DNA of 64,000 nt. Origin: Prevotella sp. (GTDB lineage: Bacteria > Bacteroidota > Bacteroidia > Bacteroidales > Bacteroidaceae). Location of the stretch: the NCBI GenBank assembly GCA_024682415.1, contig JAIKZG010000013.1, positions 87,219 to 151,218 on the forward strand, in the 5' to 3' direction. Of the stretch, positions 6,541 through 62,168 are shown piece by piece (the stretch's first letter is position 1; each line of letters starts with the position of its first letter). A program made the translations under genes and the position numbers. The notes under the pieces are model-generated. The model was given only the letters and a program-made list of their open reading frames with translations, had not been told where the DNA came from and searched no databases.

Positions 6541-7278
6541 TTATATTGCCATTATTGCATGGTATACTTTGTCACGAAAAGTTGTCCAGTCGTTTACAAT
6601 AAGAGAATTTCCATGCTTTCCTAAGTCGTTTGAAGAAAGCGTTATCTTCGTATCGCTTGTCTTGTAATAATCCATGTATTCGGATTTTTTCTTTCCTAAC
6701 AATGATTCATTGTCTGGTAAATGAACAACATATAGCAATGTCTTATCAGGGGTGTGTAGACTTATTTTTGTATCGTCATTTGACAATATTATATATTTAT
6801 GAGAATTGTTAGCATTGAATAATTCCCAATGTTTCAACACGCCGCTGTTGTCATAGTAAGGTAATTTATCGAAAACAATAAATACTTGAAAATAGGGCAC
6901 ATTAGAACAGCGAATGTTTGCCGTTTCGCCAAGCATATTCTCAAAATAGTTATTTGAATTCTGCTTATAATTCTGCATGACAAACTTTACAGCAATTCCT
7001 GCTACAGGCTTATTATCTTTACTTATGGTAATGTCTACCATTTTATCTATATACCTACCTTCAATCTTAGCCTCTTTGTCATCGCCATATCCTTGTGAAC
7101 TTACCTTGTATTCATTACCAAGTTTATCTGCAAGGTCTTTTGCTATCGCTCCATGCAAGTCTTTTAATTTTGCCGTGCTGCGTGAAGTTCCTACATTTAG
7201 GAATGTATTAAAAGATTTCGAGATAACGTTCAGGAAATCTTCGTTTTCCATTGGATAATTTATTGTCTTTGCTATCAT
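6541..7278 (-). CDS. Putative type II restriction endonuclease (PD-(D/E)XK-like)
   Basis: 245 aa ORF overlapping the 3' end of an N6-adenine MTase gene; IEGRYIDKMVDITISKDNKPVAGIAVKFVMQ resembles a nuclease core; the alternative start at Met10 (7251) also overlaps. Confidence 0.65.
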   Translation of the reverse strand: MIAKTINYPMENEDFLNVISKSFNTFLNVGTSRSTAKLKDLHGAIAKDLADKLGNEYKVSSQGYGDDKEAKIEGRYIDKMVDITISKDNKPVAGIAVKFVMQNYKQNSNNYFENMLGETANIRCSNVPYFQVFIVFDKLPYYDNSGVLKHWELFNANNSHKYIILSNDDTKISLHTPDKTLLYVVHLPDNESLLGKKKSEYMDYYKTSDTKITLSSNDLGKHGNSLIVNDWTTFRDKVYHAIMAI

Positions 7279-8695
7279 CGCTATAAAGTTTATAATTTAT
7301 ATATTGTTGTATATCCTTTGTGCTATAAGTATAATATCCTCCACTCTTATATTTCTTTAGACACGATATATAGTGAATGAATTCATCTGTTAAGATTATT
7401 GATTTTATCTTTTCATAAGGAATTTTAGACAAAATGTAAATTCCGCTGTATACTCCCGAACCGCTTGGCACATCATTGATTTTTACAGTGCTTATATCTT
7501 TTATTACTGTATTTATGGAAATTTTATTGGTATACACGTCTTTCAATGCCTGTGTGCGACCGAACAAAAACCAATTAGGTTTTTGCTTCTCTGTTTTTCC
7601 TTTCAACAGTTCTTTTTTATGAATATTCAGATAATTGGCTATTTCTGTATTTGCAAAAATTGTTTCCTTATCAAAAGGCTTGCCTTTCTTGTCATAAGGA
7701 TAAAAGCAATATCGCCATTTTCCGGTTGATCCTTTAATAACAGGTATAGTCATTTCTTTAAAAGGAAAGTCGCCGACAAAGACTTTATCTGCCAATGTCG
7801 CAAATCCATTTTTGGCTACAGTATATTCTGGATAGTGGCACGACTTTATGTTTCTCAATAATTCTAAGTCCTCCTTATCAGAAAGATAAAAATCACCATT
7901 TATATCGATTTCGTCAAAGGTTAATGTACAGATAAAATCTTTATCTTGTTCTGATTCATTATACTTATAGTAATTCAGGAAATTATCATGCTTTGAATTG
8001 TCGAATAGGGAAATTATAGTATATGTCATTGCATTTTCAAAAGCTTGAAAATGTTCAAGATCAATAAGTCCACAAAGTTTTTTAGTCATAGTGATATACC
8101 TACGGAAGGTGTTGGCTGCAACACTGTTAAGCCATGAACTTGGAGTAATATAGCATAGTTTTCCTGTATCATTAAGCATTTTAAAACCAATCTCGAAAAA
8201 TACAAGATATAAATCAGTCATTCCATCGGAAGCAAAGATGTATGACTTAACAGCCTCATAGCTATCTCCTAAGTTATGAACTCTCACATATGGTGGATTA
8301 CCTATGACATAGTCCATACGATTGTTAAAATCATATACTTTTAAAGTATTGGTATTTCTTATGTCCCACTTTATCCTTCTTAGTCCATAAGCTTCTGTGA
8401 TATGATTCAGATTATCGATACAATTATTATAGGTAACATTATCCAATTCTATTCCGTGGATAAATGTTTCCAATTCATTAGCTAAAATGTCCTTTTTACA
8501 ATTAGCATTTAAAGATACATTGCAATACCTTGCAACAATTGAGCATAGAAAGGCACCATCTCCACAACTATTGTCAATAACATGTTTTTTGAGAATACAA
8601 TTGCCTACGTATCCACAAAAATCCAACATTTTATCAACAATAAATTGTGGAGTGAAAATTTGCCCGCTATGCTTTATTCGGGAATTGTCCTCCAT
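7208..8695 (-). CDS. Eco57I/N6-adenine-specific DNA methyltransferase
   Basis: 495 aa; motif I DNSCGDGAFLCSIV, motif IV NPPYVRVHN, C-terminal target-recognition-like region. Confidence 0.88.
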   Translation of the reverse strand: MEDNSRIKHSGQIFTPQFIVDKMLDFCGYVGNCILKKHVIDNSCGDGAFLCSIVARYCNVSLNANCKKDILANELETFIHGIELDNVTYNNCIDNLNHITEAYGLRRIKWDIRNTNTLKVYDFNNRMDYVIGNPPYVRVHNLGDSYEAVKSYIFASDGMTDLYLVFFEIGFKMLNDTGKLCYITPSSWLNSVAANTFRRYITMTKKLCGLIDLEHFQAFENAMTYTIISLFDNSKHDNFLNYYKYNESEQDKDFICTLTFDEIDINGDFYLSDKEDLELLRNIKSCHYPEYTVAKNGFATLADKVFVGDFPFKEMTIPVIKGSTGKWRYCFYPYDKKGKPFDKETIFANTEIANYLNIHKKELLKGKTEKQKPNWFLFGRTQALKDVYTNKISINTVIKDISTVKINDVPSGSGVYSGIYILSKIPYEKIKSIILTDEFIHYISCLKKYKSGGYYTYSTKDIQQYINYKLYSDDSKDNKLSNGKRRFPERYLEIF

Positions 8696-8725
8696 GCAGC
8701 ATACGCTTTTGAAGCGATCTGCATT

Positions 8726-8878
8726 GTTCCTTCAAAAAACCTACGAACACAAAACACGGGCGTGTACATGCCCGAACTGTGGTCGTAGGAAACCAGAAGG
8801 AACGACAAGACGCGCCCGTGAAATAACACGGACGTCTGCACTTGTACATTATTCCTTCTTAGTCTAAAATTTCCTACG
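8726..8878 (-). promoter_or_regulatory. Candidate transcription attenuator / structured leader of the RM operon (terminator hairpin + U6 with mutually exclusive upstream stem)
   Basis: Minus strand: CGTAGGAAA (8878-8870) can pair with TTTCCTACG (8792-8784), enclosing hairpin AGAAGGAA...TTCCTTCT (8859-8795). CCTACGACCACA (8789-8778) can instead pair with TGTGTTCGTAGG (8751-8740), followed by TTTTTT (8739-8734). Confidence 0.55.
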
Positions 8879-9106
8879 TTTCAGTTCGAATGGAACAATA
8901 GCAAACGCTATAATTATTACCAGTAAAATAAGTAGTGGAGCTTAATACTCCGACTTGCATTGCAAAGGTAATAATAAACAGTTAATTGGTAATACTTTAT
9001 TCTGCTAATTAACATGGAATTAACGAAATCTTATGAATTTTGCTCGTCTGTCATTGAGTGTCTGTAGAGTAATTTTTGTGAATAGCTGCGCAAAGAAAGT
9101 TTTTTT

Positions 9107-9440
9107 GCTCGGTCAGTGTGTTTGCGCATCGTCACAGCTATCTCCCTTGCTCGGTTAGTGTGTTTGCGCATCGTCAAAGCTATCTCCCTTGCTCGGTTAG
9201 TATGTATGCGCATCGTCATAGTTATCTCCCTTGCTCGGTCAGTGTGTTTGCGCATCGTCACAGTAATCTCCCTTGCTCGGTTAGTATGTATGCGCATCGT
9301 CAAAGCTATCTCCCTTGCTCGGTCAGTGTGTTTGCGCATCGTCACAGCTATCTTCCTTGCTCGGTTAGTATGTTTGCGCGTCGTCACAGTTGCCTTCCTT
9401 GCTCGGTTAGTATGTTTGAAGTGTATTCTGCGTTGTTCTT
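9107..9440. repeat. 42-bp tandem repeat array, 7 full copies plus a partial copy
   Basis: Unit tgctcggtcagtgtgtttgcgcatcgtcacagctatctccct repeated head-to-tail with alternating A/B subtypes. Confidence 0.95.
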
Positions 9441-9787: not shown

Positions 9788-11224
9788 TTACTTCTGGTCA
9801 AGAAATTCTCTTGCCATTCGCGTAAGTTCATCGGTGTCTATTGTTTCCAAAATCACTTCTTCTGGCTCTAAATTGAGCAGGAATTGCATATAGGTGGGGA
9901 GAGTCAATAGGTCTCCATCTCGCCCGACGTTGTAATCTCCGAACTTGATGAAATGTTTTATCCCATATTTCTCAGGGTGTTTTCTGACGGTAGAAAAACT
10001 TTTTGCCTGGGCGCTTTTTGCTTTCACCTCAACTGGAATGCACTCGCCTTTATAACGGATAAGGAAATCCAACTCCAAGCCAGAATCTTTTTGGAAATAG
10101 TATAGGCTCTGTCCTTTTTTGATGAGTGTGTCGGCCATCAGGTTTTCAAAGATAGCTCCTTTGAATCCTCCCAAATTGCCTTGAAGAATATCTGCTCTTG
10201 TCGTACCTCCAAGCATGGCTACCAACATGCCGATGTCGGCAGTGTAGACCTTGAACACGTTGTCTATGGCATTGCCTTCCAAAGGAAGCCCTGTTATGTT
10301 GGAGTTATAGCATCGGCGTATGATGTCGGCATCTTCCAACCATTGGAGGGAGTCTTTGTAAAACACACCGCGTCCACCACTTTCCACTTTAGACCACTGG
10401 TATTTTTTGTTTTCTTTTGCCAGCTGTTTTGGAATGGCATTAAAACAGGCCCGAATGTGAGGTTTGTCCTTATCATCGGCATATTTCAGCATGTCTGAAC
10501 GGTATTCTTTAAGAAGGGAATTCCAAACATCATTCACCTTGCCCATGTTGCCAGTTTCTATTAGTGCATTTACTGCAGCAGGCATTCCTCCCACTGCAAC
10601 ATATCGATACAGGAGAGTTTTCATAGCAACGTGGATGCCACTTGGTACAGGAGTCTCATCCTTCAAACATCGCTTCAATACATTGATGACATCTTCATTC
10701 ATATCGTTCGCCCACAGAAACTCTTCAAAATCGAGTGGATACATCTCTACTATTTGCTCGTAGCCAACAGGGATGGAATTACTTCCCTTTTCTTGTTTGG
10801 TTGGTTTCCTCGTACGCTGCCTTTTTTCATCTTGACCATAGCCTTGTACACCGAGTAGCGAGCCTGTAGCAATGATGTCATAACGACCGTCTTCCTTGAA
10901 GAACTTCAAGCTGGTACGAGCTTCCGGGCAATCTTGGATTTCATCCAGAATAATGCATGTTTCTCCAGGAACGAATTTTGTAGCTCTCATCTGGGCAGAA
11001 AGGTTAAGGATTATGCTATCGACATCCTTTGAGTCATAGAAAGCTTCTTTCCTTCTTTCTTGCTTGATGAAATTGATATATACCACATACTTGTAGTTCT
11101 CTTCAGCAAATATTTTGGATATATAGGTTTTTCCGCATTGGCGGATGCCCATGATAACAAGTGGGGAATGGTTTGATTGCTCCTTCCACTTTTTTAACGT
11201 CTCATATATTTTTCTTTTAAGCAT
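9788..11224 (-). CDS. AAA family ATPase with DUF4143 domain
   Basis: 478 aa; IMGIRQCGKTYI Walker A, CIILDEIQDCP Walker B, C-terminal FENLMADTLIKKG...LELDFLIRYKGECIPVEVKAK (DUF4143). Confidence 0.92.
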   Translation of the reverse strand: MLKRKIYETLKKWKEQSNHSPLVIMGIRQCGKTYISKIFAEENYKYVVYINFIKQERRKEAFYDSKDVDSIILNLSAQMRATKFVPGETCIILDEIQDCPEARTSLKFFKEDGRYDIIATGSLLGVQGYGQDEKRQRTRKPTKQEKGSNSIPVGYEQIVEMYPLDFEEFLWANDMNEDVINVLKRCLKDETPVPSGIHVAMKTLLYRYVAVGGMPAAVNALIETGNMGKVNDVWNSLLKEYRSDMLKYADDKDKPHIRACFNAIPKQLAKENKKYQWSKVESGGRGVFYKDSLQWLEDADIIRRCYNSNITGLPLEGNAIDNVFKVYTADIGMLVAMLGGTTRADILQGNLGGFKGAIFENLMADTLIKKGQSLYYFQKDSGLELDFLIRYKGECIPVEVKAKSAQAKSFSTVRKHPEKYGIKHFIKFGDYNVGRDGDLLTLPTYMQFLLNLEPEEVILETIDTDELTRMAREFLDQK

Positions 11225-11483
11225 AATATGTTATTTTTGCGCGTAAAGATACGTTTTTTTTATGACTTTTGTAATAATCGTTGTCGTTTTTCTAACGACT
11301 TTTGCTTGTCTTTATGCTTTTTTTAAAACGAAGTTTCAAAATCCGTTGCTTTTTTTAACCGATCTGCATTATTGCATTGCAAAGGCAAGAATAAACCGTT
11401 GATAGGTAATCATAAAGGAATTATTTATTGTTCAATTGTTTCGTGACAAATGTAAGCTAACGAAATTTAGTTGTGCACCGCTT

Positions 11484-61529: not shown

Positions 61530-61635
61530 TTTCTTAGTATATAATTACGCCTTGTAATGCTCTTTTGTGGCAAATATACGAAGAAATTGGCAAATAGCAA
61601 ATTAGAATGTTTTGATTTGGACAATTTCTCCACCC

Positions 61636-62168
61636 AATCAAGTTTGATTTTGCTTCACCAGGGAATTTCTAAGTTCAATCAAGTTTGATTTTGTGCCGCC
61701 AAGAAATCTCCAGCTCCAATCAGGTTTGATTTTCTGTCGCTAAGGAATTTCCAGCTCCAATCAGGTTTGGTTTTGGTTCGCCAAGGAATTTCTAACTCCA
61801 ATCAAGTTGGATTTCATGTCGCCAGGGAATCTCCAGCTCCAATCAAGTTGGATTTTTCATCGCCAGGGAATTTCTAACTCCAATCAACTTTGATTTTGCT
61901 TCGCCAAGGAATTTCCAGCTCCAATTAACTTTGATTTTGTGCCGCCAAGGAATCTCCAGCTCCAATCAAGTTTGATTTTGCTTCGCTAAGGAATTTCTAA
62001 GTTCAATCAAGTTGGATTTTGCATCGCCAGGGAATTTCCAGCTCCAATCAACTTTGATTTTGTGCCGCCAAGAAATTTCTAACTCCAGTCAAGTTTGATT
62101 TTGCTTCGCCAGGGAATCTCCAATCCCAATCAAGTTTGATTTTGTGTCGCCAAGAAATTTCTAATGAG
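61636..62168. repeat. 41-bp tandem repeat array, 13 copies, each starting with palindromic AATCAA(G/C)TTTGATT
   Basis: Contiguous units, e.g. AATCAAGTTTGATTttgcttcgccaaggaatttctaactcc; period not divisible by 3, no ORF across it. Confidence 0.96.

Follow-up and report, generated by a model that had tools for sequence, protein, structure and literature searches.

Controller proteins are the usual explanation for how a restriction-modification system is switched on safely after entering a new host, and a leader-RNA switch acting on such genes would be unusual. The Prevotella sp. DNA analysed here (a stretch of 64,000 nucleotides, referred to as the window) raises the question of whether such a switch exists. 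Upstream of a methyltransferase gene the first-pass annotation had described a switch-like attenuator with three mutually competing segments, CGTAGGAAA (1), TTTCCTACG (2) and TGTGTTCGTAGG (3). These segments, the T6 tract, the inner helix AGAAGGAA/TTCCTTCT and the promoter box TACCTTTG all lie on the minus strand exactly where they had been placed, correct to the base (Table 1). We consider it likely that the leader is a co-transcriptional terminator/antiterminator switch belonging to an uncatalogued family of cis-regulatory RNAs.

The methyltransferase matches PADLOC MTase_II (E 4.6e-146) and contains the catalytic NPPY motif, as a type II restriction-modification operon requires, while the product of the second gene of the operon has no match in Pfam, PADLOC or NCBIfam. 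The restriction-modification operon adjoins a gene (9788-11224, minus strand) for an AAA_14/DUF4143 ATPase that matches PDC-S01, a candidate defence family of PADLOC (E 4.6e-147). Upstream of the latter, at 11360-11383 (minus strand), the sequences TTTGCAATGCAA and AATGCAGATCG are almost adjacent; in the methyltransferase leader the same two sequences flank the switch, at 8966-8955 and 8725-8715. The short site resembles a promoter copy without the switch, possibly an empty or deleted site. A 42-bp tandem repeat in 7.5 copies (9105-9418) is located just upstream of the leader promoter, and a tandem array (about 1690-2240 of locus L002) likewise lies ahead of this genome's second methylase-type leader. 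At 61623-62164 there is another tandem array, whose 41-bp units are organised into a higher-order unit of 123 bp.

Table 1. Parts of the methyltransferase leader and the genes downstream of it, in window coordinates
Feature	Position	Strand	Basis
Promoter -7 box TACCTTTG, Bacteroidota type TAnnTTTG	8963-8970	-	sequence
H0, 5'-terminal hairpin GGAG...CTCC	8934-8956	-	fold
H1 hairpin ATAGC-GTTT-GCTAT	8898-8911	-	highest sequence conservation in the family
Strand a, 5' half of P0, TGTTCC.TTC	8888-8897	-	growing-transcript fold, own-versus-cross test
P1a 5' strand CGAACTG, partner 8779-8773	8882-8888	-	covariation
P1b 5' strand CGTAGGAAA (segment 1)	8870-8878	-	covariation
P2 5' strand AGAAGGAA	8852-8859	-	covariation, pairing test
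Strand a', 3' half of P0, GAAGGAATA, overlapping P2 5' strand	8850-8858	-	growing-transcript fold, own-versus-cross test
P3/P4 hairpin, 3' arm common to the T pairing	8804-8845	-	covariation, pairing test
P4 within P3/P4, GTCCGTG / CACGGGC	8833-8827 / 8820-8814	-	covariation, pairing test
P2 3' strand TTCCTTCT	8795-8802	-	covariation, pairing test
P1b 3' strand TTTCCTACG (segment 2)	8784-8792	-	covariation, pairing test
P1a 3' strand CAGTTCG	8773-8779	-	covariation, pairing test
Flank CGGGC, continuing from P1a 3' strand, able to pair with T	8774-8770	-	pairing test
T strand ACACGCCCGTG, partners P4 3' arm (10/11) or flank CGGGC	8755-8765	-	sequence, own-versus-cross test
First U run, immediately 3' of T	8751-8754	-	sequence
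Segment 3 TGTGTTCGTAGG, partner 8789-8778	8740-8751	-	sequence, fold; lineage-specific
Terminator T6 tract	8734-8739	-	sequence
Adenine DNA methyltransferase gene (Eco57I / N6_Mtase), presumed controlled gene	7208-8695	-	family match
Second operon gene, putative restriction endonuclease by position only	6541-7278	-	no family match

The leader folds at -90.1 kcal/mol compared to -63.8 kcal/mol for shuffled sequences (z -5.5), and none of 200 shuffles was as stable. The minimum-energy fold of the transcript cut exactly at the U tract is the 1:2 rod, and that of the full leader is the 2:3 terminator. The fold without P1/P2 pairs is at most 0.2 kcal/mol from the minimum of the tested stretch and includes P0, the pairing of strand a, just 3' of hairpin H1, with strand a'; this pairing, which the first-pass annotation had overlooked, is incompatible with the 1:2 rod and is a conserved early alternative to it. 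Within the energy model the bistability of the leader is real, and it was judged by family-wide tests, replacing a claim from a single minimum-energy fold. The 5'-terminal hairpin H0 has a mean z of -2.0 in 139 folded family copies.

The same genome contains a second, diverged relative of the leader DNA, with CCTAGGAAAT/ATTCCTAGG in place of CGTAGGAAA/TTTCCTACG; the gene that follows this relative carries a methylase-like AEVFTP motif. A pattern search revealed more copies in other genera. A covariance model (R1) was made from 9 copies with a hand-built structure comprising H1, P1a, P1b, P2, P3 and P4; double changes were present at 22 of 43 pairs in this initial alignment. R1 matches at least 164 of 301 genomes of the same bacterial family (E up to 1e-4), and its genome counts are lower bounds since only the best 10 candidates per genome were scored. 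With R2, a model made from 99 copies, about 25 copies are detected in the window's genome, including a weak one of 42 bits. Of 299 genomes sampled across the phylum, 35 have a match (E up to 1e-7), and these include members of its other classes. A gapped sequence pattern located at least 120 stretches in named genomes, the carriers being Prevotella, Xylanibacter, Paraprevotella, Muribaculaceae, Tannerella, Alistipes, Butyricimonas, Paludibacteraceae, Pedobacter and a few Kiritimatiellae bins. Of 80 fetched pattern loci 79 were confirmed across the full model, the exception (L160) being partial. Cultured strains are among the carriers, for example Xylanibacter brevis ATCC 19188 (L169, where the leader precedes an HsdM-like gene, and L217) and Paraprevotella xylaniphila YIT 11841 (L224). 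Because metagenome bins can be contaminated, the Kiritimatiellae copies are not proof of residence in that group. The rod shape alone does not account for the matches, since the reverse complement of a rod scores only 29 bits compared to at least 60 bits for the Bacteroidaceae copies of set 1 (see below) and at least 42 in later sets; confidence is lower for the weakest matches, which score 42 bits (L203 and the G000:C20 copy).

In Rfam 15 the window leader has no match at the gathering threshold and nothing meaningful at E up to 10; related copies have no match there either, and the lack of a match to the T-box model places the leader outside the T-box RNAs. No description of the family was found in the main texts of the open-access literature. 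No match was obtained in a plasmid search with the leader DNA. The single match among viral contigs (L288, 6624-6730, plus strand) is near the end of a 7-kb contig that also carries integrase, primase and relaxase-like genes and is therefore a mobilizable element, not a phage; this one copy suggests that the leader can ride on such elements. A survey of candidate structured RNAs from the human microbiome lists 3161 anonymous entries, including palindromic, terminator-containing Bacteroidetes motifs, and the leader family could be among them, although the main text of that survey contains no description that matches it (PMC8040213). We therefore report a new RNA family proposed to exert control of a known kind, and that catalogue may include part of the family.

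Covariation in homologues, the absence of which was to count against the proposed switch, is extensive. In 101 aligned rows, including one spurious reverse-complement match, compensatory changes occur at 39 of 43 pairs, and 92.9% of cells are paired compared to 33-40% when the strands are slid. P1b is paired in 99.9% of cells of these rows, one of its pairs occurring as AU (46), GC (30), CG (15) and UA (10). In an independent set of 97 further sequences, phylum-wide and from named contigs, 42 of 43 pairs covary. Such alignments are fitted to the model, which favours rod pairs, and a second test was therefore used, in which duplex energies within a copy's own RNA are compared to those with segments from other copies (98 Bacteroidaceae copies, set 1; 94 phylum-wide copies, set 2). 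The z values for sets 1 and 2, respectively, are -34.6 and -36.9 for P1a, -26.2 and -15.0 for P1b, and -28.4 and -31.6 for P2. Two pairings absent from every covariance model are likewise recovered, namely P0 (a:a'; -16.3 and -15.5) and T with the 3' arm of P3/P4 (T:P34-3'; -17.7 and -16.4), along with that of the flank with T (-13.9 and -10.6). Control windows mostly give about -2 to +3, with the exceptions of a:d (-5.7, set 1) and P1b3:d2 (-3.7, set 2), part of which may be strand 3. The 2:3 stem, taken for an intrinsic terminator in the first-pass annotation, is significant in the Bacteroidaceae set (z -10.2) but not phylum-wide (z -1.2); it is a lineage-specific extra rather than the general competition.

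A 7/7 match of T to the 3' strand of P4 is present in 75 of 99 copies, compared to 4 of 99 in a control region. At P4 wobble sites T has the base that would form a Watson-Crick pair with the 3' arm in 110 cases, and the base of the 5' arm itself in 38, a bias that would fit competition between T and the P4 5' arm. Unpaired bases are conserved as well, namely AA and CC of the P1a/P1b loop (94-100%) and AGC..GCU of H1, and may mark a candidate binding site.

The helices thus form two incompatible sets, each conserved: the rod of P1, P2, P3 and P4, and P0 together with either T:P34-3' or flank:T. P0 would exclude P1/P2 in any simple model, since strand a lies directly against P1a and strand a' lies against P2 or overlaps it, a compact tertiary fold being the exception to this argument from spacing. 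T:P34-3' clashes with P4, and its coexistence with P1/P2 would require a pseudoknot. In simulated growing transcripts the probability of P0 exceeds 0.5 in 90-98% of copies as long as the distal strands are still to be transcribed, the rod is present in all copies at the end of the element, and terminator-type pairing appears in about half of copies after T is added; the free fold retains the rod despite T in about half. The rod and the alternative differ by 3.8 kcal/mol on average, and the alternative is favoured in one third of copies. At equilibrium P0 disappears as soon as rod formation is possible, and the favoured fold seldom includes T:P34-3'; therefore, both would be relevant only with help from kinetics or a bound factor, the RNA energies leaving out proteins and kinetics.

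A TAnnTTTG box, the motif by which promoters were called, is located upstream of 144 of 192 copies (14.5 expected from shuffling), at a distance of 48-102 nt (10th-90th percentile); by this simple criterion no clear box is present in about a quarter of copies. A U-tract (at least 6 T in 8 nt, within the 50 nt past the element) follows 82% and 73% of copies compared to about 25% in the control, 18-27% lacking a clear one by the same kind of simple criterion. Of 102 copies, 95 have a same-strand ORF that starts no more than 330 nt downstream, at a median distance of 94 nt, and same-strand ORFs are more frequent than divergent ones (83/98 versus 29/98). The element therefore occupies the position of a leader, between a promoter and a same-strand gene, and, as in an attenuator, its terminator strand is common to an alternative helix, judging by sequence and coevolution. 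The attenuator originally proposed is upheld in its covariation, common strands, promoter, U-tract and same-strand gene, while its aptamer or ligand part is conjectural. Leader ORFs (ATG, at least 7 codons) occur in 98 of 194 copies compared to 149 in shuffles, fewer than expected by chance, making a leader peptide unlikely; a leader-peptide attenuator was therefore rejected.

The family is not specific for restriction-modification genes. In 94 copies the Pfam families of the first downstream gene, which can overlap within one protein, include EcoRI_methylase (13), BspA LRR_5 (9), N6_Mtase (8), fimbrillin-like Mfa_like_1 (7), Eco57I (5), and N6_N4_Mtase, HsdM_N, SNF2-related and ResIII (4 each). 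Eighty other copies precede genes with N6_Mtase, N6_N4_Mtase, MmeI, EcoRI_methylase, Mrr, DarT, LRR_5, TonB-receptor plug and other domains. An amino-methyltransferase motif is present in 34 of 174 downstream proteins (2.5 expected from shuffling). DNA methyltransferases make up about one fifth of the targets, and surface genes, such as fimbrillin-like and BspA genes, are frequent too; the targets have no common metabolic pathway. A methyltransferase at L083, 53% identical to that of the window, has its own leader, with diverged sequence and the structure kept. In the window's genome, coordinate matching places 18 of 25 copies before Mfa_like_1 genes and at least 3 before methylase- or defence-type genes (the window, C37:47.6k and C14:37.8k). 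This genome has 38 Mfa_like_1 genes above the cut-off, 18 of them with the leader, so that the fimbrillin-like genes under this leader form a large set.

Transcription attenuators and riboswitches with terminator-antiterminator exchange are exemplified by the T-box and SAM-I leaders. The present family resembles them in its 5' location, in domain strands common to an intrinsic terminator, in exclusive helices and in conserved unpaired bases. Unlike them, it has no Rfam 15 match, its targets are DNA methyltransferases and surface proteins rather than a metabolic pathway, and a ligand is only conjectural here. EAR/LoaP and UpxY-type leaders act by processive antitermination, and here too a leader RNA could enable polymerase to read through terminators ahead of operons that are long or costly; however, the terminator strand pairs with the element itself, there is no Rfam match, and no NusG-like first downstream gene appears among the Pfam families shown. 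FopS of Bacteroides comprises trans-acting paralogous sRNAs with an unpaired 5' seed, a terminator hairpin and SusC-like mRNA targets; it shares with our family a multi-copy distribution in Bacteroidaceae and a rho-independent terminator, but the latter is a cis leader with a long rod (PMC11697453).

Several other explanations may be considered. The parts could be identical and the signal missing, so that kinetic competition between rod and terminator passively sets a low or cell-to-cell variable expression of costly genes. This sub-case of the switch accords with the near balance of the two states and with costly or variable targets (restriction-modification, fimbrillin-like, BspA) lacking a single metabolic theme, but the conserved unpaired bases of the P1a/P1b loop and H1 suggest a binding partner, and we regard it as rather unlikely. 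The promoter and U-tract would also suit a free-standing, terminated small RNA acting in trans, with incidental read-through, and multi-copy families of this type exist in Bacteroides, for example FopS (PMC11697453). However, a same-strand gene lies about 90 nt past nearly every copy; only 10 of 192 copies have a TAnnTTTG box in the interval separating element and gene, and the genes therefore seem dependent on read-through. The strand-exchange design would be superfluous for a plain sRNA, which makes this reading improbable.

Somewhat less probable still is a processing or stability element, the rod being cut or protected by a nuclease without switching; the very long rod with its many base pairs would fit, but the conserved P0 and T pairings and the U-tract would be left unexplained. 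According to the first-pass annotation, occurrence of the same block at many unrelated loci would indicate a dispersed palindrome instead of a leader. The family does occur at many unrelated loci, with 25 copies in the window's genome and a copy on the contig of a mobilizable element, and the shortened promoter copy at 11360-11383 could be read in the same way, as a REP- or MITE-like element landing upstream of genes by chance. However, the copies share structure, not sequence, and lie in one orientation before genes, with promoters and U-tracts; the orientation and the lack of sequence identity largely refute the dispersed repeat, which we consider highly improbable.

In the terminator/antiterminator switch that we favour, polymerase would start just 3' of TACCTTTG, and strands a and a' would pair as P0 as soon as both are transcribed. 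The emerging distal 3' strands would then displace P0 and zip up the long P1-P2-P3-P4 rod. With the rod formed, the 3' arms of P3/P4 and P1a would be occupied and T left partnerless, so that no hairpin would precede the U-tract and transcription would run on into the methyltransferase gene (ON), the rod serving as antiterminator. If P0 persisted or the rod formed late, T would pair with the 3' arm of P3/P4 or the P1a flank to give an intrinsic terminator (OFF), to which the window copy would add the pairing of segment 3 with segment 2. The ON and OFF states are assigned by which of them leaves T free ahead of the U-tract, and the balance between them would presumably be set by a signal.

It is possible, although we propose it only tentatively, that one common signal acts over DNA-defence and variable surface genes of Bacteroidota through a phylum-wide orphan class of signal-sensing leader RNAs, which would serve about 25 genes in the window's genome and move with restriction-modification cassettes between species, perhaps into Kiritimatiellae. 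A working switch would mean that, in dominant bacteria of the gut and rumen, many genes for defence and the cell surface are under one RNA-level control, and a direct search for its trigger would be possible. With the covariance model, the two pairing sets and the cultured carriers at hand, the proposal is testable at once.
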